From assembly GCF_949628265.1 (NCBI RefSeq), contig NC_088787.1, positions 1,230,501 through 1,294,500 of the forward strand: a DNA stretch of 64,000 nt, given 5' to 3'. Positions 11,015 to 58,076 of the stretch are shown here, one piece after another. The notes below the pieces were generated by a model. It did not search any database. It was not told where the DNA came from and worked only from the letters and a program-made list of their open reading frames with translations. Position 1 is the first letter of the stretch; every line of letters starts with the position of its first letter. A program made the translations under genes and the position numbers. Origin of the DNA: Cloeon dipterum. Taxonomy: Eukaryota > Arthropoda > Insecta > Ephemeroptera > Baetidae.

Positions 11015-14000
11015 TTATTTGCTGGGTGAAGCTTCCTCGAGTTCATCAAACCTTCTAAGTAAATGAGTCGGAAAAGATTCGTCAATGTAGTCACGAGCAG
11101 ATTTCCCCTGAATGTCTCTTATGTTGACATCCACATTTTTTGACAAAAGTATTTCAAAAAATGTGTAATCCCAAAGCTTTTCCTTGCAAGCCAAAATCAA
11201 CGGGGTTTCGTTCGAAGCATTTTTCGCGTTCAAATCAATGACGCCCTGCTCCACAAGCTCAATTAGAAAGTGTTGAATTATGTCTCCTGCATTTAATTTG
11301 ATTGCCAGATGCAGAGATGTGTCTCCATTGTTCAAACGCTGTTTTACCAAATCACCATTCACATTATGAATGAATAACGCCATGTGAAAGTTTCGTATCG
11401 CATGGTGAAAAGCGTTCATCCCGTCGTTGTCTGTCAAAGCAAAATCTGCACCTCTTTTGCACAACTCTTGCACCAAATCAAAAGTAAATAAATCTTCGAT
11501 TCGATGGTTTCCATCCAAATTAACGGCGTAGTGCAGGGCGGTTCTTCCTTTTTTATCTTTCACATGTATATCGACGTTTTTATCCAGCAAAATTTTAGCT
11601 AAATGCCAATCACTCTCCTTGCAAACCAGCAGAAGCGGTGTCTCACCCTCGTTGTTTGTTACATTCAAGTCATTTTCAAAATGCTCAAGGACCCAAAGAA
11701 TAATGTCAGTGTCTCCGAAACTCGATCTTATTGCCAAATGGAGGGTTGTGTTTCCGTCTTTAAAACGCTGTCCCAACAACTCATTGTTTTTCTCGTGAAG
11801 AAATGAAATTACCTCCAAGTGATCTGTTGCGTGGTTCAAGGCATTCATTCCGTTCCTGTCTGTTAGAGTCAAATCCGCACCTTTCTCGTGCAAAAGCTTC
11901 ACTAAATCCAATTTTCCCCATTGTGCGGCGTAGTGCATTGCAGTTTTTCCCCACATGTCCGAGACATTGACCTCAACATTTCTGGTCAGCAGCAATTCGG
12001 CGGCCCTCCAGAACTCTTTTTTGCAAGCCAGTAAGAGTGGTGTGTTGCCAGAAGCATTTTTCGCGTTTAAAACGGAATCGTCTACTTGCTCTATAATCCA
12101 CAGAGCAATTTTATCACTGTGTCCATCACAAAAAGAGTGCAATACCGCATGTAGAATTGTATTTCCATCGTTTGAAGGATGCTTCATAAGATCTCCGTTC
12201 TTCTCATTGAGGAATCGTAACATTCTTTCGTCTCTGATAGCGTAGTGGATTGCATTCTTTCCTTGCTTGTCCGTTAGAGTTAAATCTGCGTTGTTTTCCA
12301 GCAAAATTTCCACCATAGCAACATTTTCTTTTTTTGCAGCAAGATGCAGTGCTGTCCTTCCTTCATTGTCACATCTGTTTACTATCAAGTTCTCTTTCAG
12401 TGTGGATCCAACAGACCCATTACCAATATCTTGATTTTTAGCTTCCTCAGCCGCGCAGGCTAGAAGCTTATCCACAAATTGCAAATGTCCATTTAGAGCG
12501 GCATCATGTAACGATGTCGATCCTATTTTGTCTACCACATCCAAGTCTCCACCGAGTTCAATCCAAGTTTGCAGAGCCTCTAAATCCCCCCTTTCAGCGG
12601 CAAAATGAAGGCACGTTCGTCCCCGTTTGTTTTTTACTCCCAGGTTGATATCTTTGGCCATCAAATAGTCAACGCAATCACGTCGTTTGTAAAATGCAAT
12701 ACGCAACGCAGTGCAGCCTTGGTTGTCCTTTGCTTTTACGTCAACTCCAATCTCTTCGACCAGAAAACGTGCTTCATCATCTGTGGGCCAATTTCCGAAT
12801 TCCACATGAATATGCAGCCCTGTTTGGTTACTTCCGGTTTTCTCCTTGGCCAGTTGACTATCAGTTCTGTGCAACCATCGAATCACGTCCTTTTTATTAC
12901 TACTGTTACTTTTGCAAGCAAAATGAAAAGCATTCCATCCATTCTCGTCTACAGCTCGAATATTCGCGCCAGAATGGATCAAATCTTTGACACGTCGAAC
13001 ATATCCATGTTCCGCAGCACAATGAAGAGCAGTTTTCACTCTTTCATCCGTCATGTTAATGTCACTCTTCTGCAGAATTAAGAAATGATCCATGCATTTA
13101 TTGTCATTCCTGGACCAATCTCTTGGATCTCCACTTGGTCGTAAGGTGTTCACGTTTTCCCCTGCTTCGTCAACAAGCCATCGACACACTTTAAAATTTC
13201 CATTTTTAGCCGAAATTTGTAGAGAACTTCCTTCATTTCCATTTTCCACGATTTTCAATCTTGGACTCTTTTCAAACAAAAATTTTACGATTTCTTTGTT
13301 CCCGTATTCAATAGCAAGTTGTAAAGCATTCAACTCTGTTTTTACTTCATTTATTTCGAACGTTTCTTTGTTGCGTTGCATTCCACTGATATTTTCATCC
13401 AATAACAATTTGACCAGGTCTAGTTTATTTTTTCTTACAGCCATCATCAAAGGGTCCCAACTTTCACCATCTTCATCTATGGCCAATTTTGCACCATGCT
13501 TGAGCAAAATTTCCACGCATTTTATAGCTTGAAAGTTAATAGCACAATGAAGAGCGTTTCCAAATTCCTCTTCCGTAAAATCAGTTATTTTATTTCGTCC
13601 ACGTCTTTTTTCAAAATCTACGTCGACACCGCTTTCCAGGAGTAGTTGAAGGATTTCACCGTGATTCCTTCTTGCTGCAATCAATCCAGCATCTATTACA
13701 AATCTTCTAGAGTGGATCATCTCTGGCAATCTAGGATATTTTGTCTTCAGCTTCTCAAAGAAGACAGTTGCGTTTGATTTAGCTACCGATTTCAACAGGT
13801 AAGGTAAAATGATTAGCAACTCTTCATCACTGTTGGTCAAGTCCGTGTCTAGAATCATGGTTCCAATTTCTTCCGCACTTTTGAATGCTCTGGCCAAAAG
13901 CGTCTTGTCGTTTGCAACAGAAATACAATTACCCTCTCGGTTGTTACTGAAGGTGATATTTTGATAAATCATTTTGAAGATATTAATACAACCACCGTCA

Positions 14001-17000
14001 ACAATCAATTCCAAAAATCTATCAGGATTCAGCTTCATGACTGTAAGAATTGATGTCCTGTCCTCTTCAATCTTTTCCTCGTTAGTGGAATAGAATAAAT
14101 CAACAAACTCTATGCACGACGATGACGATTGCTTGTATAATATGCTTGCACCATCTTCAACACTGGTTTGGGATTCACTTTCGCTAACAACATCGATTTC
14201 AAGCAGAAAATGCTGGGCTGCAAGAAATTCAGCGAAAGTTTGATGAATGAAAAAAACCTTGTTGTTTTCAAACGTGGCAATGCCATAGCAATTGAATTTT
14301 TCAAGCTCTTTTCTTGTGGCATCATCATTTAGTTCAACTTCTGTGATGTGGCAACTTGCTATCTGTTGAAGACGTTTCAAAGCTTCGTCGAATAACCTGG
14401 GAAATGTGTTTTCATTGTCTTTGTCAAATCCTTTATTGATCAGAGAGTCTTCCACTTTCCGTCGCACAACCTGGTCGTAGATTTGGTACAAGTTTCCTTC
14501 TGCCCCGTACTTGGCAACCAAAGAAAGGTGCAAAGGATTTTCCAGGATGCCATTTGAAGAAAAGTTATCGATGAATAATTCACAATCTTCTCGACTCTTG
14601 CCCGTCTCAAGCTTCAAAAACTCGATTTGCTGCTTATAATTCAAGGGAACAATCTTTACTATAACAGCCTTTGATATCCGCTTTTTTATTGTTTCTGCTG
14701 CGTGAGGTCTCGTTCCAACCCATATGGAAATCTGCTTCTTTTCTAGAGCTTCGATAACTTTTAGTACCTTTTGTTGGTTTTCACGACGGATTTCATCAAA
14801 CCCATCAAGAATCACAACACACTGCTTGTTTTCTATCTGCTTTGAGATTTCCTCTTTCGAAATATGAGTGGCATTCGCGAGAAAATCAAACTCGGTCACG
14901 TTCCTCTTCAAAGGGCCAAACGAAACTCTCGGGAGTGAAATACGTAAAATTTGTAAATCAGGATCTAGTTTCCCGAGTTGAAAAGCCATTTCCCTGAGGA
15001 TTGTCGTCTTTCCCGTTCCTGCGACCGAACTCAAAAGCCAAATTTGTTTTTCTGTTGCCGATTCCTTCACCAAGCTGTCGAAGCTGACGTCATATTCTAT
15101 ATATTTTTGAGAATTTATCACTGACGAGAAGCTAAGTTCAACAAAAGAACTGGGCCAGTCGGGAAAATTGAGAGAATACTGGAGCGTCGAGTTAAGAAAA
15201 TCCTTATTTTCTTTTGATTCGGAAATAAGAAGACTTGCGAGCAGTTCTTGAAGACTTTTTTCCTTTTTCAGCTCTTGACCCTTGAAGAGTTCGATCAGCT
15301 TTTGAAGTTCATCTAGAAAGATAAAAATGTATTTCCTGTCAAACAAATTTTGCAGTATTTAGATTAAAAGGTTAGTGATTTGGAGTAGTAAAAAATTACC
15401 TTTGTTGTGCAAAACAAGGACTAACCATCCACTGTGATTTGTTGCAGAAATTTTCATGTTAGACTGCATTTTTCCGATCTTAAAACAAATACGGTGAGAG
15501 TTACTTAAATGTCATTTTATTCAATTTCACAACATATTTTGGAATTGCATTGAAATTAATTGAATACAAAATCACTTACGGCGTCAGACGAGCTCGTTTC
15601 CTGATTAACAAGGAATAATACTTTCGGTTTTCCTATCCACTGGTCGTTTTTTGGCCCGATAAACTCGCGCAGTATTTCTGAAACCACAATTTCTTGACCG
15701 TCCACCTGCACGCAAACCTCATTCATGTCCTTTTTTTCACTCAATCGGCCAAAGAAAATCAGGAAAATGCAGCCAATGTTGGAGTCACACCACGAGGCTG
15801 AAATAACCATTGCATAAATTCCAGCATATCAATATAATTAAGTCGTTAAACCTTCATTTATGGACTCCCATGGATTTCCTCTCAGCAACCTTTCGTTGGT
15901 CTCAAAATCTAGGTTTTGGGACAGAGCTCTTTTAATTTCATTCAGCTGCTCATTTCGCTCTGCATCTACGGAAAATAGGATCGCAAGGCGACGTCGCAAG
16001 TTTTCCCCTGATTTTGATTTCCAATCGTAAAAATCGCGCTTGATGGCAATTTCGTCCAATGTCTTGGAAGCCAAGTTATTTGAAGGGCTTCTGAAATACA
16101 CAATTTTATCATCAAATATTTCTGCATTAAAAGTTGTTAGTCTATACGTTTTAAAATGCGACGGACATCCTATTAAATCACGAAAACTTACTTTGAGATC
16201 ACAAAACCTCTGTCCTGGGAAAACATCTTTACTTCCGGAGTTTGTCCAGTTGTCTCTTTGACTGCAACTTTGTGGCTCTCGTATTGAATAGTTGTCAGGA
16301 CATTAATCAGACTCTCGTCCTTCTGAAGCGAATTTAAGACCTGGCACGTAAGGAAGGCGAATGTTGTTCCTTTCTGGTCTCGTTTGGCCTTGGTCGCTGG
16401 GAAAATTATTGCAATTTAGTTAAAGAATCAAATTTTTATTAACATTTGCCTTACTTTCGACCGTTGAGAAGAACACAACCGTGTTTCTCGTCAAAGGGCT
16501 GTAGGTGATTCGGCAGGAGTTTTCGTTCTCGAACTCGACGTAGTTGTGATTGGCGAAAAAAATTGAGTCTATCAGCTCCCCTCTACATGGCTATAAATTA
16601 TAATTTTATTACATTAATTTGGTGATATTAGCAGAGATACTTACACCAAAGTTAATAAATTTAAGACATTCCTCGAAAGCAGTCAGCTTTTTTAGAGACT
16701 CAAATATCTCCGTTGTTGTGAAGCAAATAAAGTCTTTTTGGTCTTCTTTCTGGTAGTGGTCGGTGAAGATTTTTCCATCTGTGTCGCCGTGGGATAGAAT
16801 GTAAAGCACAAACACTGATGGAACATCTGTAAAACCAATACGATAAATTAGAATTTATCGAACAGTGATTTGGTTTACCTGGACAGCCAAATAATTTTAA
16901 TAGTTCTTTTTGATTTGAAAGAAGTTGAAGCAATTCCTCTTTTTCCGGTGACAAAATACTGCGAAAGTTGCAGTTCCGGTTCACCCTGAAGGTTTTTTCT

Positions 17001-17214
17001 AGATTCTCTACGTCCTGAGCATCGCCTTTCCGAATCCAGGATTCGTCCTTGGTCTTTTCAAAGTTGTAGTGAACGACGAGCACGCAAACACTGATAATTA
17101 GGGGGTTTATATTAATTATGTCGGATAGTTTCCACGATGTTTATACTTGTCTGCGTTTTTTCTTTGTTGGTCTTTCGACACGAAATATCCTAATTTGGCT
17201 GGCCCCTCGGGCAT
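11015..17214 (-). CDS. Gene A: caspase / pseudocaspase / NACHT / ankyrin protein
   Basis: Nine exons in one continuous frame of 1,878 codons: 17147-17214, 16879-17090, 16645-16826, 16455-16590, 16192-16396, 15852-16090, 15580-15797, 15400-15478, 11015-15312. Residues about 1-268 are caspase-like. A p20 start (VCVLVVHYNF) leads to His106 in ILSHGDTDG and Cys156 in PCRGE. A p10-like part contains GTTFAFLTCQ and TPEVKMF. Residues about 268-490 repeat the fold, but the His position is Phe (FFGR) and the Cys motif reads VNQETS, so it is probably inactive. NACHT: Walker A AGTGKTT (Lys548), Walker B VVILDGFDE (Asp616), GTRP, and a winged-helix signature FIHQTFAEFLAAQ. Ankyrin repeats fill the rest. 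Likely role (inference): a cytosolic sensor that assembles and activates its own protease. The start is uncertain. A 61-bp in-frame exon at 17260-17320 could precede this ATG and would need a further upstream exon. Paralogue of gene B. Confidence 0.88.
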
Positions 17215-17329
17215 TTTCTCTGAAAAAATCCGTGAAAACCACTAAATTAAGTTTATTACCTCCAAAAGGTCTTGGATAAATGATTGGTGTCTGCTTCTCG
17301 ACTAGAGTATAATTGTCAACCTGCGGTTT

Positions 17330-17975: not shown

Positions 17976-17979
17976 ATTG

Positions 17980-19950: not shown

Positions 19951-20970
19951 TGTGAATTGCAACTTAGTCAGGAGTAATCTAGCTGATTAATTATCCAAAA
20001 ATTTGCCTTTATCTAGAATTACGTTGCAACCTTCGCGTACCCAGGCATTAATTCGGGCCGCAGGACAGAACTCCCCAGTAGTTACCCTCCCGGTGAAGCC
20101 GTGCCCTTTCAGGATTTTTCTGACACCACCAACTTTAATTAGTTCCCAAAGTTGGAAATGGAAGATTTTGAATTTACGTTAAAAGAATAACTTTAGAAAA
20201 TGAAATTTAATAGATAAATATAAGTTTTAGACGAGCGGTTCAAGATCGCGTAGTTTCTTTAATTACTAGGGTAAAATAATGAAAGAGACCAGTTTAGGTT
20301 AAATACAAGTAACATTATTATTTAAGCTGATACTTTAAACGATACAGCAAAATTTATATTTGGTTTAATAATTATGAAATATATTTCACCTTGATATTGA
20401 CTCAGTTAAGAACGTTATTGAAATAACCGAAATACAATCAGGAACTGAATATTAAAGGAATTAAACTTTACAATATTGAATTGGAAAAGAGGAATTAATA
20501 AGCTCAGTTAACTAAAAGTTTCTCACCACTTACTCTACCAATTAAAGAAGAATAGCTGCGGACTTCTCCCACACTAGCCCGTTGTAACGCGTGGAAAAAT
20601 GAACTCTCAAGTAACTCGAGTGTCATTTGGTCCGCGGTTATATAGTGGCAAGTGAGGGGTTTGCCCAATGGATTACATGACTGAGAGTAATCGAGTAAAC
20701 AATAGATTAACTTCACTTTTACAAATTAAAATAAATATCCTCTATTGAAAATACTATTGAATCAATGACATTGAGGATTTAATGGAATAAATATGTTTTG
20801 GTCCTCAATGAGATTACTTTGTATTTAAAACAATAGAATTAGAGTGTTTGGCAATTTAATTGTAATCACTTGTGGTACCATTAGGATTCAGTTATTGTTA
20901 AGCGAACAATACAATTTAAATTAAAGTGATTTTAAATATTTACTGTTATTATTACCACAAGGGATTCACA
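19951..20970 (-). repeat. 3' LTR of the retrotransposon
   Basis: 1,020 bp, starting TGTGAATTGC and ending GGGATTCACA on the plus strand. It is the downstream LTR relative to the minus-strand genes. A short purine-rich stretch (AGTGTGGGAG on the minus strand) adjoins its outer edge next to env and is the probable polypurine tract. Confidence 0.93.
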
Positions 20971-21079
20971 CTCCCACACTGAAATTGTACACGGAGGGTG
21001 CGATTTCAACAAAAGAAACTAAATTGCCTAAGCGTATGTTACAAGAAACAAAGAAAACGATAAAAAAACGTAAAATATA

Positions 21080-22720
21080 CTATAGCAGATGGTCGTCACT
21101 GGGAGATTGGTTTGGTGCATTAAGACGTTCAGCTAATGCGTCTTGATCAACGTAAGTAACCAAGCGAACTCTACCGGATGGTGTGAGGACTGAGCGCTCT
21201 TGAGGAGAAGGAACCGATTGGAGAGGAACTGCTTCTGGCTCAGTAGGGGTATGGTACTCTGGTTCCGCTGGAGACACTGAAGGAGTGCTCTTGTTTGCTT
21301 TAAATGTCCATCCGGAATAATGGTACACCAAAACCAAAGTGACGGCCAATGCTAGAACAATAACTACAAATACGAATACAATATAATATATATACAAATG
21401 GTAGGGTTCTCCAACAGATGTGTCATCTAAGCTAATTCTATTAATTTCATGTAAAAGAGTGTTAATTTCAAGACCAGTATTGTCATCCAAAAGTGTGGAA
21501 TTATCGATTAAAGCGAACAACGTTGACATTTTATCATTTTGTCGCGTTACATTAAAATTCGAGATAGTGGAAAGAACGGTTAAAACAGGAAGTGGCGGAA
21601 ATTTTACGTTTATACTTCCCATATTAAGTCGTCCAGCACCGAAAAGGATTTCATCTCCTACCAAGACGTGACACGATGAGGGGACATGGAAATAACCTGT
21701 GCCCTTAATTGACTGTGGAATTCGGTGCCATTCATTTGCACGAGTACATGTGACATGGAGATTAGTTAGGTTTGCAACATTATAAAGATAAACATCAGAA
21801 TTATCTGGTCTATAGAAAATTGGTTTGAAACTAGCAATGGTAGACACATGACAACTTTTATGGAGATTATCGCTAACTGTTTTGCTGCGGAAAAGTGAAT
21901 ACAAACAATCAGTTGCAGCAGTAGTGCGTATCTTAAAACGGGGTTGGCATAACGTGTAAGATAACTTTTTGCAAGAATTGAGGTCAGCCCACGTAAGATA
22001 AAAGAAACTTTGCGTATGTTCGTTAATGGCCAGCAACTCTTTGTCGGGTATAAACGAATAATATAAATCCGAATTATTAATTGGACTCGGAATAGCGAAT
22101 GACTGATAAACAGTAAAGTTATTATAAATATGCGCAATCGGAAATTTAAGCAACAATTAAATTATCGTTTACTGCAAATGCTGACAGTTGAACTTCATTA
22201 AAATACGTTTGAAGGGAGCCCGATGAATCATGTGTGAGAATACTGGAATCAGGAGGAAGATGGGTCTTCACCTCTGAAGCAAACTTGAGGAAGGTCTCGG
22301 TGTCCAAAAAATAAGGATCCAGTTGACCTCTGGCAGCAGAAACAAAAGCATCACGGAATGTGCGAATTTTTGTTTCTAAAATACTGCATTCGAGCTCGAG
22401 TGACGCGAGGAGCGTTCTGCTTTTCGCCCAATAGTTGAGGCGTGCTTCTGCAGTGGACGAAAGGTCGCGAATTAAACGTGCTATAGTAGTGTTAAAAGAA
22501 TGCATCTCTTGTTCGATAAAAGCCACATGAGAGGCTGTGGTCATCACTTTTTGATACGTGTGATTAAGGATAGTTGCTTGATCATACTGCAAATGCTGAT
22601 AATGATATTATCTATGTGTAAAAACAAAATGCCATTTTGAGGAATTGAGTTGTGAGTTGCTGTTACCAAAAAAGGAATGATTGTCAATAAAGACAAGACA
22701 ATCAAATGCGACCGCCCCAT
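21080..22720 (-). pseudogene. env: env-like gene of the retrotransposon, broken by frame changes
   Basis: Third ORF of the element, downstream of pol. It appears in three frames. A first piece starts at an ATG at 22718-22720 and encodes a hydrophobic signal-peptide-like N-terminus. A middle piece (22592-22146) resembles the central region of baculovirus F-type envelope fusion proteins. A C-terminal piece (22156-21080) has a membrane segment of about 25 residues (near LYIYYIVFVFVVIVLALAV) followed by a cytoplasmic tail. Frame changes near 22600 and near 22150 separate the pieces, so no intact envelope protein is encoded as read. The F-type assignment is inference from general pattern; the membrane anchor and position after pol are seen directly. 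Confidence 0.7.
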
Positions 22721-22793
22721 AACGGTGCTTGATCAATTTGAAGACGGTTACGTAAAGGGTACGGGGAACGAACAGGTTGTGGTGCCTCTGGTG

Positions 22794-25700
22794 CTATGTT
22801 TGCCTCCCCAGGTGTGTTAGGCTGTGAACAAGACTGGGAAAATCAATGTCACCATCTAAATCATCTGAACATTCAATTTCATGTTGTGTATTAATGTCAG
22901 AATAATGAGAATGGGAATCAAGTGAAGTAGTGGGCGCTTTAGATTTTAAAGTGCGAGATGGCTTTTTAGCCGCGCCAGATTGTCGACCAGATTGTGGTTT
23001 TAGTCGATCTATGTGAACCTCGAAAACTTTACCTTTATCATTAGTTATTTCAGCATTGTGGTCCAGAATTTTCGTGATTGTAAATGGACCAGTGAATAAA
23101 GGCTGTAAAAACTTGGAAACTGTGGTTGGAAATTGACCACGTTTGAGAAAAACGGTTTGGCCTATTTCTAAATTTCTCCCTTTAGTGAATTTGTCATATT
23201 GAACTTGATATTTTGCCTCTTGTTGTTTTAAAGTATTTTTGACCATTGCATTTGATTCATGAATTTGTTTGCGAACAAGTGTAGCGTAATTGTCGTTGTA
23301 GACAGGAGCGATGTAATGATGTCGCGGATCAGTAGGCAGATCAAAGGGTAAGAGCGGTGTTCTTTCATAGAGCATCTCAAACGGTGAACGGTTTGTTGAG
23401 GAATGCAATTGCGTCATGTATGCAAATTTGACATAAGGCAAAAGATCTGGCCAGTTGCCATCGTGGTTTTGCACAGTTGCGCGGAGAAGGCTCTTGAGAG
23501 TTAGTGCCAATGACTCGTTCTGCTTGTCCATTAGCCTGTTGATGATAAGGTGTTGTTGGTGTATGCTTCACCTTAAGAAGTTTGTTGACCTCGGAGACGG
23601 TAGCAGCCAAGATGTTGGTGCCTCTGTCGGACACTAATTGAGAGATCATACCGTGCACAAGGTAAACGTGTTCCACTAGAAAGCGCGCCACGGTTTCTGC
23701 GCGGATGTCGGAGACTGCTTGCAGCTCGATCGCTTTAGTGAAACTATCGATGATAACAATTACGTATTTCTCACCGTTTGGTCCTGTAGGGTTACAAGGT
23801 CCAAAAATGTCGAGATGAGCGCAGTGCCATTTTGAACGGTCACGTTTGAATTTATCCATTGGCACTTTTAAAATTCGCTTGTTCGGTTTGGTCAAATTGC
23901 AAGTTAAGCAGCTTTGGACGTATTGGCGAACTGATGAGTTCATTTGTGGCCAATAAAATCGTCCTTGCAAAGTATAAAGCATTTTCTCAACTGATTGATG
24001 ACCACTAAAAGGTGCATCATGAAAAGCATGGAGGAGTCGAAGTCGCATTGCCTCTGGGACAAAGACGAGTGGTTCATCGTTGACAGATTTTGCGAAACGT
24101 ACGACGCCCTCCGGTGTTCGTGTCCAAAACCCATCTGGTGTTTCCAATGTAGTGACTGACGGGTCAGACTGAGACCAAATGTCTGTAAGGAAAGCGTCTG
24201 CGCGTTGGTAAGTAACCAAGTCATCTGCAGACCAGACAGGGGTGATCCCTGTAGAATCGGAATTACCCGAATGAATAGGTGCAGCCACTAAACGAGACAG
24301 AGTATCTGCGTTTGCGTGCTGACTGCCTTTTCTATATTCAAATTTAAGAGGCCAAGAAGAGAGCTCGATGGCCCAGCGTTCCAGTTTGCTGGAGCCACCA
24401 CCTTTCAAATTGCGGAAGTACGCAAGAGCTCGATGGTCACTTAGCACGGTAACTTCGCAAAAATAAAGTAGCGGTTTGAAGTGCCTAAGTGCCAGAATAA
24501 TTGACAGCAATTCTTTTTCAGAAGTTGTATAACGAACTTGGCAACCAGTAAAAAGTTTTGAAAAGAAAGCAATAACTTGTTCGTGACCCTCATCATTTAC
24601 TTGATTTAAAACAGCGCCTGCTGCAAAATGTGAGGCGTCTACTGCTAATATAAAAGGTTTTTTGAAATTGGGCTGAACTAAAACAGGAGCGGTAGTCAAA
24701 GCGGTTTTGAGTTCCTGTATAGCGTTTAAGCGTTCGGGAGTAATTTCAAATTTAACGTTTTTTCTGGTGAGTTCCACTAGCGGTATTGTGAGATCCGCAA
24801 ATCTATGAATGAAAACGCGGTAATAATTCAGCAATGCAAGGAATTGGCGTATTTGAGTAATATTTTCTGGAATAGGAAAATTTTGAATCGCGCTAATTTT
24901 ATCAGGGCAAGGTCGAAGTCCGGTTGTTGTCAACACATACCCCAAAAATTCTAGCTTTTTGCAAAGAAAATCGGTTTTGGCAGGTCCGAGTTTGAGATTG
25001 AATTTAATGACTAATTGGAAGACTTCTTCTAGTAGAGAAAGATGTTCTTCTAAAGTCGGAGTTGCGATGAGGATATCGTCTAAATAGAGGTGAACGCCCT
25101 TTTCATACAAAGGCGAAAAGACCATGTCTGCAGCTCGCATCCAAATTGCAGGGCTACATTTAGCGCCAAAAGGTAGTCGGGTTGGTTCGTATCGTCCAAA
25201 TGGAGTAATAATACTTAGAATTCGTCTTGAATCTTCATCCAATTCGATGGTTTGAAATGCACTGGAGACGTCAACACGACTGAGAAATTTCGCACCGTTC
25301 AAATTGTGCAAAATTTGAGTGATTGATGGAGTTGGGTAGATTTCATCTGTCATTCTGGAGTTGACTTTACGCAAATCAAAAACTAAGCGAAATTCAGGGA
25401 CACGTCCAATTTCTGTCTTCTTCAGTACGACAAGAATGGGTGAGCTCCAACTGCCAGCAGCTGGAACTAAATGTCCTTTTTCAACTTGTTCATCGATGAT
25501 TCTTTTTACTTCGTCCTTGATTTTAACAGGAATGGTGTAGGGCTTGCTAATCACCGGTGGTCCATCAGAGACGGTAATTTTAGCTTTGAAACCGGGAAAA
25601 ACGCCCAAAAGTTTGCGTTTGTCTTGAAAAGCGTCTTTGTAGGACACCAGTAAGTGTTCCAGAATACGTCTGTTGTCGTCTGGTAGATGATCCAATTTGA

Positions 25701-26721
25701 AATGCTGAATGAACTCGTCAAGCGAGTCAGTATTTTTCAATTTCGTTTCCGCAGTCACATAAGCGTGAGGTTCCAGCAGTTCGTCTTGAAAAGGAGTAGG
25801 GTTGTCATCACACTCCTCAATAGAGAGTGAAGCTAGTTGTGCTGGAAAATAGTCGGAAACGTCATCAATGGGTGTCGCTGTCCACGACACTGATGCTGAA
25901 TTAACGGTATAATGCTGTCCATCTTGCAAAATTGGCTTGGCAGAATCGTCTTGAGATAGGAAGTATTGACGTTGTGGAACCAAGTCAGGCGACCCAGGAA
26001 GATCTTGATTGGAGTGCACGGAGACTGTTGTTGCGGGTGCCGCCAATAAAGGGGGATCGCTAAAATCTAATAAGGCAGTGGTAACAACGCCATTTTCGAT
26101 TCTGCCCGGTTTGCAAGGGTAAACAGGAATATCTCTGTTATGTAAAATGAGTTTATCGGGACCCAAAGACATTTTATGTGTTCGTAAAAAGTCAATTCCT
26201 AGCAGTGCATGATAATTAGAGAATAGTGGAGTCTCAGAAATCAAAAAGTCACAGGGAACCGTGAAATTGTCAAAGGTAAGATTAATCGTGGCAATGCCAA
26301 CGAGTTTTAAGTTGGTATCTCCTAGCCCAAATAATTTCCAATTCGTTTCTCGGCAAATTGAGGGATTTTTGAGTAACTTTAAAGGCATTAAGCATACAGG
26401 AGAGCCTGTATCTATCAAAAGTCGAAATTTTGAAACATTGACTTGAGGACTGTGTGCAAGAACGGTAGCTAAATCGTAAATTGATTTGGAGCCATTAATG
26501 GCTATGCATTGAGGAGCCGAGACAATATGCGGAATTAAAATCGGATCTCCTTGATTAGGGTCTGATGAGAGAGGAGAACAAACACCCACCCTATTTAGTT
26601 TCCCGAAGACGAATTTCGTTTTGGAGTGACGCCCATGGCGATGGAAATTGAGTCGTTGATAGCTCTTTTCAGTTTGAAACATCTTTCGACGGTATGGTTT
26701 GCGATGCCACACATCGGACAT
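22794..26721 (-). pseudogene. pol: pol polyprotein gene of the retrotransposon (frameshift in integrase)
   Basis: Main frame 26721-23377 (1,114 codons) overlaps the end of gag by about 127 bp in another frame, which suggests frameshift expression. In order: aspartic protease (LLIDTGSPVCLMP), reverse transcriptase (FRLVFDLRKVNS; YLDDILIA), RNase H (LAVDASHFAAGAVL), an integrase HHCC zinc domain (HDAPFSGHQ ... SCLTCN) and catalytic-core residues (HLDIFGP; SDRGTN; QQANGQAE). The frame is lost just after the last core motif, at about 23490-23520. The integrase C-terminus continues in a second frame (23531-22794) with a GPF module (LFTGPFTI). As read, integrase would be truncated, either by a recent indel or by a sequence error. 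Confidence 0.9.
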
Positions 26722-29555: not shown

Positions 29556-29569
29556 CACTTCTGACACCA
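29556..29569 (-). other. Primer-binding site (tRNA-Leu type)
   Basis: On the minus strand TGGTGTCAGAAGTG lies immediately inside the 5' LTR. It is complementary to a tRNA 3' end ...CACTTCTGACACCA, which fits animal tRNA-Leu (CAG type) acceptor ends. The match covers 14 bases, then diverges. Confidence 0.85.
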
Positions 29570-43856: not shown

Positions 43857-45417
43857 TCAGTATTCTTCTTTAGGTGGCTTTCCCGCAACGTTTCCCTCTG
43901 CACCGCTTGAACCATCTATTCTGAAACAGGCGAGCAAATCGGGAGCTAAATAATGCAATGAGTGGAAAGTATAAAATAAGATTATTTTGTTATTGTATCA
44001 ATTATTAAAAATATAGCAGACTTTAAGAAATAGGTGGACTAAGAATTTATTTTGGTTTCGAGAAGTTCAAAGGAATTTACCTGGCGGGGCCTCGAACATG
44101 TACGATTTGGCTCCGACTGCAGCCTTCAAAAGCCTCTGACTTGGCTTTTCTCTGTTCGTGTCAAACACCGTCATCCAAAGGGTTCCATTTTGGTCCAAAG
44201 CAATAGTAAACGGCCAATAACTATCCTTTCCAGCGGCCTAAAAACAAGCAATGAGTGGAAGTTTAGTGAAATTTACAGTTGAAATGCTGGAGGGAAATTT
44301 TTGATGGTGCCTGATCTTCAAGGCTGAGCACAATGCTTTTACTGGCCCACAAAATTATTTATTCTACTGTGAAATATTATTTTAAATTGGCGACTCCTTA
44401 TCCTTACCTCACGAAAACGCTGCTCCTGAAGTGGTTGGGAAGAGTTCCAAGAAGATGCGTAATTCTTCCACAAAAAGGCGGCATACACGGTCCCCTGGTT
44501 GTCCATCAGCATTCTGTATGGTGGTCCGGTCCAGTTTCCGATTAGTTTCGGATTTACTCTTCGAGTTCCGTTGTGAAGTGCGGCAACGGAAAATGAATAG
44601 AGTTCTTTGGATTTGGCAAGGTAGAGCTGTCTTGGTTCCTGATCCTTTGGGGACAGGGCGATGGAAATAAGACGTAATCCTGGCGTGCAGTGTACAAACC
44701 AGCTTTGGTTTCTTTCCAAACTAAAGACGACAATGTGTTCTTCTCTCCACCGCGTGATGTAGGCAAAGGTTCCGTTTGGCGTTTCGTCGAGCACCAAGTC
44801 GTGCATGGAATGGTTAATATCAATCTCATGAATGAGTTTAGTTTGATCGTTGTTGGCCAAGTCGATGGTCCATAGTTTGGCCTTGCAAGTGTTGCTTCCG
44901 CTGTCGAGCACCCACAGCCTTCCAACCGAGTCCACTTCCAGCCCTCTTGCTTCTTCAATTTTGTCGCAGTCTCCTATTTTTCCCTGCAAAATTATGAGAG
45001 TTGTTTTGCACTTTTAAAATAAAAATTATTGGTCCTGTTTTTCATTGAAACTAACTGCGTTTCAAGTTAGATCTATTTTTTCCAATAAAAGAGCATACTT
45101 ACATGCATGTCCCATGAAGGGAATGGAGTGAGCTTCGGGGGTGCGGAGGACGCGCTGCTCGTCGGCAAGGACACCAGAGTCACCGGAATGCCGCCATAAC
45201 TCTCAAGGCTGAGGAAGAGTCTTGAACCGTAGACCGCAATGAAATGAGGAGAAATGTTGTCTGGTTCGAAAGTTTTATCTTTCAAGGCCTTTGACCTGCT
45301 GGCCTCGGACGGCCACTCGTAATCCAATTCTTTCCACTCGTAGACTTGATTGAAGTTGGTCGTGGCGGCCACGGATGAAAGGCCAAGCAAGAAAAAGGTG
45401 GCGAAGAAGGGAGTCAT
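43857..45417 (-). CDS. Yellow / major royal jelly protein family member
   Basis: Four coding exons (45103-45417, 44408-44983, 44081-44237, 43857-43915) joined in frame give 368 residues. A signal peptide (MTPFFATFFLLGLSSVAA) precedes the family's beta-propeller. Family words include ISPHFIAVYGSRLFLSL, ARGLEVDSVGRLWVLDSG, HDLVLDETPNGTFAYIT, PYRMLMDNQGTVYAAFLWKN and SYWPFTIALDQNGTLWMTVF. Insect Yellow proteins are secreted; known members act in melanin and cuticle pigmentation (for example dopachrome conversion) or as secreted ligand-binding proteins. Which subfamily applies here is not decidable by eye. The length is slightly short for the family, with a low-complexity tail ending KPPKEEY. An 18-bp 5' UTR segment starts after an acceptor at 45436, linking to a non-coding exon near 45813. 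Confidence 0.92.
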
Positions 45418-49020: not shown

Positions 49021-52000
49021 CTAGATAATGCTATTGACTGGTGAACTACGTTCAATTAAAGCTTGCAATACCTCTTGATCACATTCCTCGGATTCTTTGG
49101 CGTATGACAGGGCAGTTTTCCCTCTTTTGTCTTCAATGTTGACATTAACGTTTTTGTCCAGCAGCATTTGAGCGAGTTCCCACTTTTTAAGTTCGCAAGT
49201 TAGCATCAGTGCAGTCATGCCTATATCGTTTGTTGCATCCAAGTCTACGACACTCTGCTCAACAAGCCACTCAGCGACAGTGAATTCATAGACGGATTTA
49301 AAAACCTTTTCAATTGCCAGATGCAAAATTGTGTTGCCGTCATTCGACCGATGCTTTACCAAATTAGATTTTATTCTATGTATCAATTTGAAAGTGTCGA
49401 GGTCACGTATCGAGTAGTACAAAACATTATTTCCCTCATTGTCCGTCAGAGTCAGATTTGCACCTCTCTCGTGCATTCTTAAAATCAAACTTTGCTTCGC
49501 TTCCTGTGAACGACGAAAAATCAGTGATGCGGCGTAGTGAAAAGCAGTTTTTCCGCGTCTGTTTTTTATGTTGGTATCAACATTTGCATTCAACAGTAAT
49601 TCAGCGACGCTCAATTTGCCGTATCTGCATGCTAGCAGCAGGGGAGTCTCTCTCTTATGGTTCAACGCGTTTAAATCGACTTCGTCACTTTGTAGCATGA
49701 TCGAAGAAACAATCCCAATTCTACATTCCTTATTTTCAACAATCTGATAATCAAACCTTTTGAAATATTTACCCCTCTCTTCTTTAACAGACGACCTGAT
49801 CGCCAAATGCAGAGTGGTATCCCCGCTTTTCAAACGGCAGTGGACTAAATTGACATTTTTCTCGAGAATAAGATGAAACATTTTCAAATCATTTATGGCA
49901 TGGTGCAGAGCATTTTTTCCTTCTTTATCCGTCAGTGACAAGTCTGCACCTTTTTCAAGAAACATTCGGGCAAGATTCAAGTCTCCTGAATGGGCCATGT
50001 GGTGAGAAGCAGTTTTCCCGTCACAATCCACAACATTGACGTCAATGTTTTTGGTTAAAAGAATTTTGGCAACATCCCATCTGCTACGTTTGCAAGCGAG
50101 CAGCAGCGCTGTTTGGTTGGCAGAATTTTTGGCGTTTAAATCGACGCCATCTTGTTCCACTAGCCAACGAATGACGTCATCGTTGCACGTGCCAACCTTA
50201 CGAATAGGTTCATACGATTTGATAGCAAAGTGAAGAATTGTGTCTTCATTAGTGAGTATCTGTTTTGCTAAATCATTGTTTTGCTCGTAAATGCTCTGAA
50301 ACATTTTCAAGTTGGTGACTGCGTAGTGAAGGCAATATTTTCCTCCTTTCTTCGGTTTATTCACACTCATTTCAAACCAATTTTGTGTCAATTTACCATT
50401 TCCGCTCTTTGTGACGTAGTGAATTGCTAATTTTCCTTTACTATTTTCAATATTGGCATCGACGTTTTTGTCCACCAGCATTTGAGTGACTTCCCAGTTT
50501 TTACTCTTGTAAGCCAGCATCAGTGCAGTCATGCCTTTGTCGTTTGTTGCATTCAAGTCTACGACATTCTGCTCAACAAGCCACTCAGCGACATTGAATT
50601 TATCCTTTTCAATTGCCAGATGCAGAATTGTGCTGCCGTCATTCGACCGATTCCTTACCAAATTCGAATTTATTCCATGGAGCAATTTGAAAGTGTCCAA
50701 GTCTTTCATCAAATAGTACAAAACATTATATCCCTCATTGTCCGTCAGAGTCAGATCTGCACCTTGATCGTACATTCTTAAAATCAAATTTTGAATCGCC
50801 GCCTTTGAACGACTAGAAATCGATTGTGCGGCGTAGTGAAAAGCAGTTTTTCCACTTCTGTTTTGAATGTTGGTATCAACATTTGCAGTCAAAAGTAATT
50901 CAGCGACGCTCCATTTGCTGATTCTGCACGCTAGCATCAATGGAGTCATTCCCTTATAGTTTAACGCGTTCAAAACGTCAACTACCCGATAATCATTAGT
51001 AGCAAAACTATCAAAATGTTTATACCTCTTTTCGTCAACAGATGAACTGTTCATAGAACGCAGACTGGTATCTCCATTTTCCAATCGGCAATTTACTAAA
51101 TTGTTAGTGCCTTCATCGTTTGTTGCATTCAAATCATCGATACTCAACAGCTCAACGAGAAGACGAATGACTTTATACTTACAGTGAGATTCAATAGCAG
51201 AGTGAAGAATTGTGTTTCCGTTTTCCAGCTGCTGTTTCACCAAATTGACATTTTTTCTGTGAATGAGCATGAAAGAATCAACGTATCCTTTTAACAATAG
51301 TTCGTGAATAACATTCCTTCCTAGGTAATCTACCGTCAGTGGGACATCTGCTCCTTTTTCAATGATCGAACGAACCAAATTCCTTAAATGAACTTTATTA
51401 AATCTATTCCATATACAAGAAAGCGATTCTGCGGTGTAGTACAAAGCGGTTTTTCCATCTTTACCTATTGCGTTGACTTCAACGTTTTTTGTCAAAAGTA
51501 ATTCGGCAACATTCCATTTGTTCTCCTTGCATGCTAGAAGCAGAGGAGTCTCATTTTGATTGTTCATTGCGTTTAAATCGAAGCCATTTTGATTTATGAT
51601 CGAAAATATAATACCATTCCTATATTCCTTAGAATAGTGTGAAGTTGGCCGAGAAAGACAATATGTAACAATTCCATCACTTATAGATACACTGATCGCT
51701 AAATGCAGAATGGTATCTCCATTTTCCAACCGGCAATGTACTAAACTGTTATTTTTCTCAAGTATTAGATGAAACATTTTGAAATCATGTATGGCGTGGT
51801 GCAAGGCATTTTTGCCTTCCTTATCCGTCAGTGACAAGTTTGCACCATTTTCAATAAACTTTTGGGCAAGATCCAAGTCTCCTGAAAGGGACATGTGGTG
51901 AAAAGCAGTTTTCCCGTCACAATCCACAACATTGACGTCAATATTTTTGGTTAGAAGAATTTTCGCCGCCTCCCATCTGCAAAGTTGGCAAGCGAGCAGC

Positions 52001-55000
52001 AGCGCTGTTTTCCCGGATGCATTTTTGGCGTTTAAATCGACGCCATCTTGCTCCACAAGCCATCGAATGACGTCATCGTTGCACGTGCCAACACTACCAA
52101 CTCTACGATAAGGATCATACGATTTGATTGCTAAGTGAAGAAAAGTTTCTTCGTTGCTCAATAGCTGTTTCACGAGGCCATTGTTTATTTTGAAAATCAG
52201 CTTGATAATTTGCAAATTTGATGTTGCGTAATGCAGGTAATTTTGTCCACTCTTATCAACAACAGTTAAATCTGCCCCGCTCTCGAGTATCATTTGCACC
52301 AAATGAACTTTTTTACTTTCTATGACGTAGTGAAGTGCCGATTTTTTATCTCCGTCTAGGACGTTGACGTCAACGTTTTTGGTCAGCAGCATTTCAACAG
52401 TTTTCCAATTCTCCTTTTTGCAAGCCAGCAGCAAAGGAGATTGGTTCTCATTGTTTACAGCGTTCAAATCAACAACTTGTTGCTCAATGAGCCACTGAAT
52501 GACATCAAACTCACCAGATTCAATTGCAAGATGAAGAGATGTGTTTCCGTTTTTCAGGCGCTGTTTTACCAAACGACCATCTTTCTCGTGAATGTATTTC
52601 ACGATCTGCAAATTGTCCATAGCGTGGTGAAAGGCATTCATTCCGCAGTGGTCCTTAAGTGTTAAATTCGCTCTGGCTGAAATCAATTTTTGCACCAAAT
52701 CCAGGTCACCAGATCGTACTGCAAAGTGCAGAGCGGTATTCCCATCACGGTCAGTAAGGTTGACGTCAACATTTTTGTCCATCAGCATTTTAGCGAATGC
52801 CCACTTTTTTTCCTTGAATGACATAAGAAGCGCAGATTTGTTCTTGTTGTTTTTCGCGTTCAAATCGACTTCACTTTGTTGCAACAACCAATCAACGACT
52901 TTAAAGTCAGAGTTTGCTTGAATTGCCACGTGCAGGATCGTATCTCCGTTTTTAAGTCGTTGTCCTAGCAAATCAGGGTTTTTTTCATGGATAAACAGAA
53001 AAACATCTATATTCGATAATGAATGGTGTAAAGCGTTCCACTCTCTCTTGTCTGCCACAGCTAAACGAGCTTTTTCTTCTGCAATCGAAATTCGAGGAGC
53101 TTTCCAGTCCAAAATACATTTGATGACCTCGAGACGACCGTGTTGACATGCAACATGGAGTGCGGTTTGCCCTTCAAAATCTGTAGCGTTGGAGTTCGCA
53201 CCGTTGCCAAGAAGCTTCTTAACGAAATCTAATTGTCCTCTTTGTGCGGCGTAGTGCAACGCGGTTAACCCTTTATAGTCTTCGATGTTCAAGTCTTCGC
53301 CCGAATCGAGCCACATTTGCAGAAACTTCGTGTCATCTCTTTCTGCAGCAAGATGCAAACACGACTGTCCAACGTTATTCTTGATCGTTGGGTCGACATC
53401 TTTTGACATCAACATCGTCATCAAGTAATCAAAGTCAGGGATACATTTATTTTTGGCAGCGAAACTTAAAGCTGTTCTGCCTCTGTTGTCCTTAACACTA
53501 ATGTCGACACCATACTCTTCGATGAGAAGACGAAGTACTTCGCTAATATCATCATCATCATCACTGTTCTCGATTAAAATGTGCAGGCTGGTTTTGCTAC
53601 TTTTGGTGTTCTCCTTGGCCAGCTGGCCGTCTGTGTTGTGCAGCAATTTTAACACTTTTTCATTATTCTCTTGATCCAAATCCCTTCCAACCTCTCCATA
53701 ATTCTTGCATGCAAAATGAAAAGCATTCATTCCATTTTCGTCTTTGGCTTGAACATTAGCACCGCGATCGATTAGACTTTGGACAAGTTCATCAAAACCG
53801 TATTCTGCTGCGCAATGAAGTGGAGTTTTTCCCCTTGCGTCTTTTTTGTTGACATCGCTTTGAAGCATCAGGTAAAAGTCCATTTGTTCTTCATACTCTG
53901 ACCAGTCATTTCGATCGCCACTCTGAAACAAAGTGTTTGCGTCAACGCCTGCTTCATTCACAAGCCATTGACATATTTCAAAATTTCTTTCAAAGATTCT
54001 TTCAAAACTGCTAAAACAATAATATCCACGCACTGCTAATTGCAGAGGACTCTCTCCTTCCATTGTGTTTACATTTTTTATGCTCGGGCTTTTGCTCAAC
54101 AAATATTTTGCAATATCTTTGTATCCTTCAAACACGGAGCAGTGAAAAACATTTCGGTTTCCTTTGAATTGTTCTATTTCAAATGTTTCACCGTTGCGTT
54201 CAAATCCTTCGACTTTTTCCTCCAAAAGGAATCGGACCATGTCTAGGTGCCCCGAGAGAACAGCCACTTTCAGAGGGTCATTCGATTTACCCTTATCGTT
54301 GATAGCCTCATACATGCCATGATTTAGCAAAGATTTTACAAATTCAATATTGCCAGTAGTAATTGCAACGTAAATCAGTCTGCTTCCATATTCTTTGTTT
54401 TCTTTTAGAACGCCGTTCTGCAAGAGGAAGTCGATAATTTGGAAATGTCCTTCTTTAGCTGCACTCCGTGCAATGTCAAAGATGACATGACTTCCAGAGC
54501 GGATCAGCTCTCGCCACGAAGGAAATTTCTCCATTATCTTTTGAAAAGTGGATATCGCGTCATGAAATGCCACTAATTTAAACAAATAAGGCAGGACATT
54601 GAGCAACTGGTCTTCATCTTTGATTATATCCAATTCAATCAACTGAGAAGCAATTTCTTCAGCGTTCTTTGTCGCATCTTTAAACAGACTCCAGTTTCTC
54701 ACAAAGCAAATTGAACCAGTTTGGGATTCATTGAATTTGATAAAAGGTTTCAATATTCGGAGCGTGTGCACTAAGCCATCACGAACAACTATTTTCAAAA
54801 ATTCATTTGGTTTCCATTTGGCAGCCAATTGAATTGCGTCACTGTGGATTTCGATAATGTCATTGTCTTTTAAAGTGGAATAGTAGTGGTCAACAAACTC
54901 CCTGCACTTTTTTAGCCGCTTTCCGTAAAACAGGTTTGAACTTATCGACCCTTCATCGAAACTCAGGAAAGCTTCATTGTCTTCCATATCTCTGATATAT

Positions 55001-58000
55001 TTCTGTGCTGCGAGGAATTCGGCAAACGTCTGATGAATAAAATAGATGTAATGGCCCTCAAATGTAGCAATGCCCAAGGAATTTATTTTTTCCGAGTCTT
55101 CTTTACTCTTGTCAGGCCCTACGAGATTTTCTCCATTCATGAAGCGATATGCAACCTCTTGGAGGAGTTTCATCGCTAATTTGAATTTTTCTTCAAATTT
55201 TTCCTTCTGGCTTTTGTCAAATCCTTTTCGAACTAACGCCAATTCAACTTTTTGCCTCACAACCTGGTCGAAAATTTGGTACAAGTTTCCTTCGCTGTCG
55301 CATTGAGCAACCAAAATGAGGTACAAAGGGTTTTCAAGAATGCCCTTCTGTTTGAATTTTTTTATGAATAGTTCGCACTCGTCTTCAGTTTTGCCGGTAT
55401 GAATCTGCAATAATTCAAGCTGTTGTTCTTTACCCAATGGCTTGATTTGCACACGAACTGCATTTGATGCTACTTTCTGGATCGCTTCTGCTTCGTGTGG
55501 TCTCGTTCCGATCAATACGCAAATATTCTTTTCATTCAAATATTTGATCAGCTTAAGGATCATCTCTCGGCTTTCAGAACTGATTTCGTCATAGCCATCT
55601 AGCAAAATCATGCATTTTTTGTTATCAACCCATGTTTCAATTTCTTCTTCTGAATAAAGTGAGGCTGCTGCTAGGAAATTTAATTCTTTTCCTATTTTTT
55701 TCTTCGATGCAAACGAGCTAAATGATACTTTTGGTAATTGTAAAAAGAGTATATTATAAGAATTAATACATCTTCCGAGATGAGAAGCTAATTCTCTCAG
55801 GAAAGTTGACTTTCCCGCACCAGCGATAGAACTCAAGAGGTAAATTCGGGCTTCTTTTGTTACTTTGTTCAATAGCTTGTCAAAAGTCAATACCGTACTT
55901 TCTTTGTTAGATTCCTGCACTGAAAAATGAAGTTTGACAAAAGACTTAGGTTGGTCTGGAAAACTTAAAAGAAACTGCAGCGTTGAGCATAGCAAATTTT
56001 TGTTGCTCTTTGTCCCAGAAATGAGCAAAGTTTCGAGCTCTTCTTGTAGGCTTTTCCCCCTTTTCAGATTTTGGTCCATGAGGATGTTGATCAGCTTTTC
56101 GAGGCTTTCTACGATTTGGATTAAAGAGTTATCAATGGTGATAGGTTTAAAATCATGTTACCTTTGTCATGCAAAACCAGAACGAGCCATCCACTATGAT
56201 AGGTGGCAGATATTACCGGGTTGTGATTCGGTGGTAGCTGAAGATAATAAAATATTAGATTATTAATATTCTTCTCTTAGTTCAAAGCTACATATTTGCT
56301 TGCATGAACTAAACTAACTGTTATTTTATTAAAATACTTACTCCGTCATCGGTTCCTGTTGCACTTTGATCGATGATAATAAATAGCTTGGGCTTTCCAA
56401 TCCACTTTTCATTCTTTGGGCCCACGAATCGTTGCAGAATGTCGGAGAATTTCATCTCTGAGTTGTCTACAAGAACACAAACCTCATTTGTGTCTTCGTG
56501 CTCGCATACTTGTCCAAAGAAAATTGATAAAACGCAGCCGATGTCAGATTCCAAGCGCGATACTGCATATAGAAACTGTTAGCTTAAAAATTATATGATT
56601 CACGAGAAATATCAAACCTTCTTGAAAGTACCGCTCCAATGAGGAAGTATTTAGTATCCTCTCGGTGGTGTCAAAATCAAGGTTATTTTGGAGGGCATTT
56701 TTGATTTGATTGATATATTCATTGAAGTCTGTGAATAGAAGGAACGCCCGGCGGTGTCGTATCATTTCTCCCGAGCTTGCTTCCCAAGGATAAATGCCTT
56801 GTTTTGTCCTAACTCCAGAAGCGTCAGAGGTTGATCTAGATGAGGGTGACGCACTCCTACAAATTTATACAAAATTCAATTGGTTCAAGGTTTGTCATGA
56901 AAATAGAAAGAACTTACTTGGAGATCACAAACTTCTTGCTTAAGGAAAACATTTTGACCTCTGGAGTTTGACCCACTATTTTGCTCTCGAAAATTTCCGT
57001 ATCTTTGTGAATGTGGTATTGAACCATAGCTAGGATATTTATCAAGGGCTCGTCCTTTTCCATTGAATTTAAGACCTGGCAGCTACTGAGACCGAAAGTT
57101 GTTCCGCTTGGGTTGCGTCTAGCTCTTGTCGCTGCGGGAGTGAAACGTAGAGTGTTTGAAATTTTAGTAATTTGACTTAAATTACACTCGACTGAAGAGT
57201 AGAAGACGACCAAGTTGTGCATCTGCGGGGAATAAGTGATGCGACATGAATTTTCGTACTCATGATCCTCTTTCTGTTGGTTGGCACTATAAACCATGTC
57301 GAACCAGTCTCCTCGACATGGCTATCGATGAGATTTGAATTCAATTTTTTTATGAATATTGTAATTACTTACTCCAAAATTGATGATTTTTAGGCAGTTC
57401 TCAAAGCCAGGTAACTTTTTTAAAGACTCGAATATTTCAGTCGTTGTAAAAGAAACAAATTCTGCAGAGTCGTCGCTCTTATAGTGGTCTGTCATAATCA
57501 CCCCTTCTGTACCTCCGTGTGATAACACGTAAAGCACAAAGACTGATGGAACTTCTAAATGAATAAAATAAATAATATTTATAATAAACTAAGATTTGAT
57601 AACGTGCTTCATACCTGTGGAGCTGAAGTATCGCAGTAGATTGTCTTTGTCTGCAAGAATAGTAAGCAAAAACTCTTTGCTTGGCGAAAAGAGTCTACGA
57701 AAGTTACAATTTCTCCTCTTCTTGAAGGTATATTCCAAATTTTCCACATCTTTTTCATTACCCTCTCGAGAAAGATTGATGCTTTTTACCCTTGTGGCCT
57801 CTTTAAAGTCGTAGTCGACTACGAGAACGCAAACGCTTTGACGAGAGTTCAAATTAGTCACTTATCTTGCAATTATTGAGCATTTTCTTACTTTTTAGCA
57901 TTTACGTTTTTTCCATCTTCTATGAAACATCCTAGTTTCGCTTCCCCTTCAAGTTGACCCCTATTCTCCCCTGAAATGTTTTAATGATCCAATAAATGTT

Positions 58001-58076
58001 GCTTACGGAAAGACCATCAAACTTTTTGTATGCAATGCTTACCTTCTTTGATAATATCTTCATAATCCTCCTTCAT
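49021..58076 (-). CDS. Gene B: caspase / pseudocaspase / NACHT / long ankyrin protein
   Basis: Ten exons in one frame of 2,829 codons: 58043-58076, 57892-57970, 57615-57835, 57373-57554, 57186-57321, 56918-57131, 56618-56856, 56342-56562, 56162-56237, 49021-56108. The start is the ATG of a short first exon (MKEDYEDIIKEG). The first caspase-like domain has His124 (YVLSHGGTEG) and Cys174 (PCRGDWFD), then p10-like GTTFGLSSCQ and GQTPEVKMFS. The second caspase-like domain (about 295-510) lacks both residues (IFFGQ; FIIIDQSATG). NACHT: Walker A AGAGKST (Lys567), Walker B MILLDGYDE (Asp638), GTRP, FIHQTFAEFLAAQ. The rest, about 1,800 residues, is ankyrin repeats in blocks of about 130 residues, nine recognisable by the NVDVN-type word. 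Three exons have exactly the same length as in gene A (182, 136, 239 bp). Proposed role (inference): sensor with a built-in protease. Confidence 0.9.

Follow-up and report, generated by a model that had tools for sequence, protein, structure and literature searches.

Two mayfly genes uniting a caspase-like domain, a pseudocaspase, a NACHT NTPase and ankyrin repeats: candidate one-chain receptor-proteases of a Baetidae family

Two genes of one plan

The window analysed here is a stretch of 64,000 nucleotides from the mayfly Cloeon dipterum (Ephemeroptera, Baetidae), corresponding to contig C2:1230501-1294500 of a 190.1-Mb genome in 10 contigs. It contains two genes, designated A and B, each of which encodes in a single chain a caspase-like domain (C1), a degenerate caspase domain (C2), a NACHT NTPase with a winged-helix-like end and a series of ankyrin repeats. 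Their parts, in window positions and in the direction of translation, are as follows.

Gene A
16192..17219, minus strand: exons 1-5 (17219-17147, 17090-16879, 16826-16645, 16590-16455, 16396-16192); caspase-like C1 with SHG and NFGPCRG, ATG at 17214-17212; GT..AG splicing, Peptidase_C14 E=2.6e-10, identity to LOC135937067
15400..16090, minus strand: exons 6-8 (16090-15852, 15797-15580, 15478-15400); degenerate caspase C2 without catalytic His or Cys; splicing, caspase profile, site counts
14195..15312, minus strand: opening portion of the last exon; NACHT NTPase with the winged-helix-like FIHQTFAEFLAAQ (approximate end); NACHT E=2.1e-9, motif conservation, NLRC4/NLRP3 profile matches
11015..14194, minus strand: last exon, remainder; linker and ankyrin repeats (Ank_2 E=1.6e-104), stop codon 11015-11017 in an open frame of 11015-15358

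Gene B
56918..58076, minus strand: exons 1-6 (58076-58043, 57970-57892, 57835-57615, 57554-57373, 57321-57186, 57131-56918); start and caspase-like C1 with SHG and NFGPCRG; splicing, Peptidase_C14 E=2.3e-17, PDB caspase-8 E=1.7e-5
56162..56856, minus strand: exons 7-9 (56856-56618, 56562-56342, 56237-56162); degenerate caspase C2; splicing, single-sequence and profile caspase matches, site counts
54931..56108, minus strand: opening portion of the last exon; NACHT NTPase with FIHQTFAEFLAAQ (approximate end); NACHT E=2.9e-9, motif conservation, NOD-like receptor (NLR) profile matches
49021..54930, minus strand: last exon, remainder; linker and long ankyrin array (Ank_2 E=1.4e-198, 29 stretches), stop codon 49021-49023 in an open frame of 49021-56157

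Joining these exons at GT..AG introns yields uninterrupted frames of 1,878 residues for gene A (nine coding exons, eight introns) and 2,829 residues for gene B (10 exons, nine introns), exactly the lengths given by an original prediction made from the letters of the window. The nine introns which it counted are found in gene B and not in the coding part of gene A, where an acceptor-like sequence preceding the first coding exon suggests one more intron in the 5' untranslated region. The gene A product is identical, at 1,878/1,878 residues, to the NCBI model LOC135937067 of C. dipterum; no protein identical to the gene B product was present among the matches of database searches with gene A, the gene B N-terminus or a profile. 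The first 900 residues of A and the first 950 of B are 48% identical (440/910 alignment positions). Both chains display the predicted succession of motifs, namely SHG and NFGPCRG, the NACHT P-loop (Walker A) and DGFDE or DGYDE (Walker B), FIHQTFAEFLAAQ and the ankyrin repeats, and Pfam searches matched Peptidase_C14, NACHT and Ank models in each. Chance open frames are ruled out by the identical NCBI model and by the 92 loci with the same order described below.

The four parts of the chain

Caspases (Peptidase_C14) use a His/Cys dyad. When a nine-sequence profile of C1 was searched against PDB, caspase-3 was matched at E=7.8e-15 over both p20 and p10, the alignment placing SHG and GPCRG at the catalytic motifs and a pair of Arg at those of the pocket, and the best 60 of 160 matches were all animal caspases 3 and 7. 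C1 has, then, the p20/p10 profile of the caspase family and is not of the metacaspase type; this sequence profile speaks against the possibility raised by the original prediction, that residues 1-268 have a fold unrelated to caspases. Individual sites were counted in 70 of 86 matched proteins, chosen by match-length filters and including near-copies apparently drawn from two assemblies. With a mean pairwise identity of 0.50 and a median column identity of 0.59 in C1, these members retain the catalytic His in 69/70 and the catalytic Cys (CxG) in 68/70 cases, and the two window genes keep both. In P0052 the Cys is lost, and in P0067 both residues are.

The pocket that receives Asp at P1 in caspases consists of Arg, Gln and Arg (residues named in a passage of PMC11121540) and is incomplete in nearly all members of the family. 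While the first Arg is kept in 64/68 members, the Gln preceding the catalytic Cys is Gly in 66/70, and the second Arg is Arg in 43/70 and Thr in 22/70; genes A and B have both Arg and lack the Gln. A canonical caspase piece from the same genome (L001) keeps QACRG. Because the Gln is replaced and the second Arg variable, the C1 cleavage site need not follow Asp, and Asp-specific cleavage appears doubtful. The ratio of nonsynonymous to synonymous substitution (dN/dS) was 0.18-0.58 for C1 and 0.11-0.62 for C2 in 55 pairs of 11 paralogues from this genome, whose introns are broadly as diverged as synonymous sites (L048 was dropped for having too few codons).

The original prediction of a pseudocaspase behind C1 is supported by profile. 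A 13-sequence profile of C2 retrieved caspases from PDB in all of the best 60 of 122 matches (best E=5.8e-7). No member (0/70) shows a His in the catalytic His column or close to it, and the position of the catalytic Cys is taken by Gln, Val or Thr in 66/70 and by Cys in 0/70. C2 is, by these counts, a caspase-profile domain devoid of both catalytic residues.

For the NACHT domain, the first 19 of 44 PDB matches of a 12-sequence profile were NLRC4 and NLRP proteins, mostly NLRP3, the best at a modest E=3.7e-4. The Walker A Lys and the Walker B Asp are each present in 75/75 members and the winged-helix His in 70/74, which gives the family the full set of NACHT features that define NLRs, albeit with a modest profile match. 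The N-terminal adaptor of NLRs is lacking: no Pfam match to CARD, PYD or Death was obtained in gene A or B, and C1-C2 stand in its place. In NCBIfam, P0055 weakly matched the antiphage NACHT protein EruA (E=4.7e-9) and gave matches in its ankyrin part, P0095 had one weak unrelated match and P0096 had none; in PADLOC, P0055 had three matches, all within the ankyrin part, and P0096 again had none.

A C-terminal repeat sensor, as in NLRs, is provided by the ankyrins, which were recognized through many Ank models; the Pfam scan of the two genes gave no match to the leucine-rich repeat (LRR), the usual NLR repeat. In the 15 paralogue pairs with the lowest ankyrin dS, dN/dS was 0.55-0.78 for the ankyrin part and 0.30-0.70 for the NACHT domain of the last exon, the former exceeding the latter in 12 of these 15 pairs, which share sequences. 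The ankyrin part showed the lowest identity of the four in 12/17 protein pairs; in the recent paralogues P0031/P0039, identity is 100% for C1, 99% for C2, 98% for NACHT and 76% for the ankyrin part. Within the repeat, we take positions 2, 3, 5, 13, 14 and 33, those randomised in designed ankyrins, to be the binding face. At these positions, dN/dS was 1.28 (bootstrap 0.92-1.90, five pairs pooled), compared to 0.50 (0.43-0.60) at the remaining repeat positions of the same pairs, and the amino-acid difference was 0.450 versus 0.228 overall, a value reached by 0/55,225 sampled six-position sets. This placement of substitutions lends good support to the face being a binding surface pressed to change.

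Size, distribution and surroundings of the family

Since the Pfam NACHT model, with 101 matches in this genome, also matched in 11 of 14 control genomes (three over the cut-off), loci were counted with the family's own NACHT domain. Gene B NACHT as the query gave 115 genome matches, merging into 107 loci, and such counts are lower bounds. The loci are distributed over contigs C4 (51), C2 (34), C3 (9), C1 (7) and C5 (6), with clusters of 30 at contig C2:0.79-4.7 Mb, the region of the window, and 49 at contig C4:29.2-36.1 Mb. Most matches sit in long open frames, from many hundred up to more than 2,000 residues; stop codons occur in one of the 115. The SHG exon as a query had 107 genome matches and the C2-domain exon 108. 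Comparing the C1, C2 and NACHT exons locus by locus, we found both caspase-type exons upstream on the same strand at 92/107 NACHT loci, at median distances of 1.47 kb for the C1 exon and 0.42 kb for the C2 exon; seven other loci had only C1, four only C2 and four neither. Among the C1 exon matches, 0/107 were without a NACHT match within 8 kb downstream.

Several members depart from the common plan at their ends. P0030, P0036, P0038, P0043-P0046, P0048, P0049, P0051, P0052 and P0058 carry about 87 to 285 residues before C1, and Pfam found no domain in this extra stretch of the one member scanned, P0046. In P0067 (NCBI LOC135942178), the member deprived of catalytic His and Cys, the ankyrins are followed by two BIR domains and a weak match to RING. 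One NACHT match and two BIR matches at contig C4:8635629-8639210 each fall within a 1,288-residue frame, equal in length to P0067; this is probably the P0067 locus, and a single exon would be consistent with it. P0067 may act as a brake. Separately, the genome holds 102 BIR-domain matches, including a dense cluster at contig C3:7771000-7878000, which suggests an expanded inhibitor of apoptosis (IAP) family in C. dipterum.

Outside this genome, relatives with the caspase part were found in one other genus. A search with the gene A protein (E<=1e-3) retrieved 92 proteins; the top 69 belong to C. dipterum or Neocloeon triangulifer, both Baetidae, and the other 23 matched via ankyrin-type stretches and are listed without Peptidase_C14. 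Of the 63 matches to a profile search, 35 came from these two mayflies and the other 28 are again listed without Peptidase_C14, and the first 520 residues of gene B returned 16, all from C. dipterum or Neocloeon. These figures count proteins and not genes, because two C. dipterum assemblies are apparently represented in the protein set. The Neocloeon models carry the same domains as the Cloeon members. No caspase-bearing relative was found beyond the two genera in these searches, in which only the candidates sharing most words were scored and for which other mayflies may lack gene models. In passing, the pairs P0024/P0025, P0010/P0011 and P0020/P0023 seemingly represent the same gene in the two C. 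dipterum assemblies at about 9-11% residue difference, for which cryptic species or rapid change may be responsible.

A quick tree of 66 C1-C2 sequences, 17 of them from Neocloeon, was built after 10 near-duplicate or multi-copy models had been excluded by hand. Its clades include one of 43 with Cloeon alone (support 87), one of nine with Neocloeon alone (96) and one of 12 in which the genera mix (95), the last holding two one-to-one pairs. By this tree, with its mixed and single-genus clades, the caspase-NACHT family is older than the Cloeon/Neocloeon split and has expanded in each genus. Wholesale transfer from bacteria or fungi is ruled out by the introns, the animal-type caspase matches and the NLR matches of the NACHT domain; the lack of Peptidase_C14 in non-mayfly database matches is further evidence against it.

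Between genes A and B lies a retroelement (window 19951-29869), with Pfam-matched frames for gag (26598-27950), polymerase/integrase (23380-26748) and a Baculo_F envelope (21083-22156). A 300-nt repeat bounds it on both sides, at 19951-20250 and 29570-29869, in identical copies that suggest a recent insertion. The element is ruled out as a source of the gene domains, since gag, polymerase/integrase and envelope models are all that its frames match. A fragment matching a major royal jelly protein (MRJP, E=4e-17) occupies 44342-45013 on the minus strand, also between the genes; the database models P0013 and P0016 have MRJP listed alongside a caspase domain. A tandem array at 35775-36977 consists of 8.4 copies of a 143-bp unit with 89% matches. 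No tRNA or Rfam family was matched in the window.

A proposed mechanism and its place among known systems

We consider it likely, if well short of certain, that this Baetidae family encodes one-chain, NLR-like receptor-proteases for defence. The original prediction is supported in part: the architecture of a sensor, an oligomeriser and a protease fused in one insect chain has the backing of the domain profiles, the identical NCBI model, the 92 same-order loci and the substitution patterns among paralogues, whereas a role in cell death or innate immunity is a proposal. To the two genes it described is added a mayfly family of about a hundred loci. The architecture, copy number, conserved motifs and fast divergence of the ankyrin face are observed, and from them we infer an activity, a trigger and an output. 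The ankyrin arm would recognize a ligand, as the placement of its substitutions suggests. The NACHT domain, whose motifs are intact, would be held by nucleotide with its winged-helix His and would then open and oligomerise. C1, with its retained His and Cys, would be the cysteine-protease effector, assembled by oligomerisation and thereby enabled to cleave, with C2 as a catalytically dead, built-in partner or brake, resembling cFLIP-L with caspase-8. The output would probably be proteolytic signalling or cell death in defence, reached without a CARD or ASC adaptor step. An exon-wise six-frame search of the whole genome for CARD, from which introns may hide further cases, gave a single match at contig C3:11478003-11478242; a search for gasdermins was uninformative, in that the controls gave no match either. 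More tentatively, and as a possibility that we do not favour, the family may constitute a single-polypeptide mayfly inflammasome of about a hundred fast-evolving receptors, with an intramolecular caspase-pseudocaspase pair of changed specificity fused to the sensing and oligomerising parts in place of recruitment through adaptors, and a dead BIR/RING member as a brake.

A number of observations weigh against the proposal of one-chain receptor-proteases. Eight of the 107 NACHT loci have no C1 match, several of the protein models dropped by the match-length filters lack the C1 core, and the altered Gln and second Arg of the pocket make Asp-specific cleavage doubtful. P0096 searched alone in PDB matched a caspase at a weak E=0.0081 and no NLR. 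Direct alignment of the C2 and C1 profiles produced no alignment, and the caspase identity of C2 consequently rests on the PDB profile search together with weaker single-sequence matches. In 5/17 protein pairs, another part diverges at least as much as the ankyrin part. The bootstrap interval for the ankyrin binding face includes 1, with 92% of resamples above it; the highest single value, 3.63 for gene A and its paralogue L041, depends on three synonymous differences, and the L034-L035 pair gives 0.79. In any repeat, moreover, positions at the surface are the more variable ones and can change simply because little constrains them, which is why the ankyrin pattern is support rather than proof.

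The pocket substitutions (Gln replaced in 66/70, second Arg variable) would suit chains whose C1 binds with no cleavage, or with cleavage too weak to matter, and which serve as scaffolds or decoys to recruit or sequester caspases or IAP proteins; P0067, with neither catalytic residue and with two BIR domains and a weak RING match, also speaks for this. A mere scaffold has no need of a catalytic dyad, however, and its retention (His 69/70, Cys 68/70) at a mean identity of 0.50 makes this explanation improbable. It is also unlikely that the family is active in something other than immunity, be it allorecognition, reproduction, symbiont control, restraint of mobile elements or tissue remodelling. 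The sensor-switch-effector design has been linked to fungal non-self recognition (in a passage of PMC4986451), which speaks for such a role, whereas the number of copies and the rapidly changing ankyrin face suit the sensing of pathogens at least as well. Finally, the caspase exons and the NACHT-ankyrin exons might be separate neighbouring genes, or be found mostly on separate transcripts, and have been merged by gene prediction. Eight of 16 short database models, from a protein search confined to about 286-910 residues, have no NACHT match, a count that favours separation and bears against the fused chain. Separation is nevertheless very improbable, given the in-frame splice joins in A and B, an NCBI model spanning all domains, the order kept at 92/107 loci with 0/107 C1 matches lacking a downstream NACHT, and the same domains in Neocloeon models.

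The original prediction knew of no described insect system with this order, and we likewise found no caspase-NACHT fusion in animals when searching the open-access literature by title, abstract opening or phrase; the phrase search led to one paper, on prokaryotes. The C. dipterum genome paper (PMC7250882) does not use the words caspase, NACHT or ankyrin in its main text. As stated in part of a survey (PMC11508797), NLRs are absent in Drosophila melanogaster and arthropod NLRs have no N-terminal effector domain. If the proposal of one-chain receptor-proteases is true, an NLR-like repertoire of about 100 loci with a fused protease would demonstrate that insects are able to evolve cytosolic immunity of this kind and that the one-chain plan known from bacteria is also in use among animals. 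The mayfly chain is naturally suited, too, to asking whether a caspase can be switched on by oligomerisation alone, without adaptors, and what role a tandem pseudocaspase plays.

Because the usual definition of an NLR fails at the N-terminal adaptor, and that of a caspase at the Asp pocket, the family is placed outside both classes, although its proposed mode of action resembles that of NLRs and of the bacterial one-chain proteins. With animal NLRs and inflammasomes (NLRC4, NLRP3) it shares the NACHT motifs, a C-terminal repeat arm, an N-terminal signalling part and a large lineage-specific expansion, and differs in having a protease and pseudoprotease for CARD, PYD or Death, ankyrins for LRR and an insect host. 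NAIP joins BIR and NACHT, as does P0067. In the Apaf-1/Dark-Dronc apoptosome, an NTPase switch assembles a caspase, as proposed here, with the two on separate chains that meet through CARD; the mayfly protein is one chain, has NACHT in place of NB-ARC and gives no CARD match. Fungal NACHT-ankyrin proteins (named matches among P0117-P0126) have NACHT-like NTPase models and ankyrins, none with a caspase model. Lineage-specific expansion of NLRs has been reported in part of PMC4852459 for sponge (120 genes), sea urchin (92), lancelet (118) and also zebrafish. Pairing of an active caspase with a pseudocaspase is described, in a passage of PMC11121540, for caspase-8 and cFLIP-L, which are products of two genes, whereas the mayfly partners, whose pairing is only presumed, are tandem domains of one chain. 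The one-chain caspase-NACHT plan itself is already known from bacteria: metacaspase-NACHT-WD40 proteins of prokaryotes, called widely distributed in a passage of PMC3501461, likewise combine a caspase-fold protease, NACHT and repeats, and other bacterial caspase-STAND fusions are mentioned in part of PMC8195603. Unlike the prokaryotic metacaspase-NACHT-WD40 proteins, the mayfly chains have an animal-type caspase (best profile match caspase-3), a pseudocaspase, ankyrins, introns and about 100 paralogous loci.

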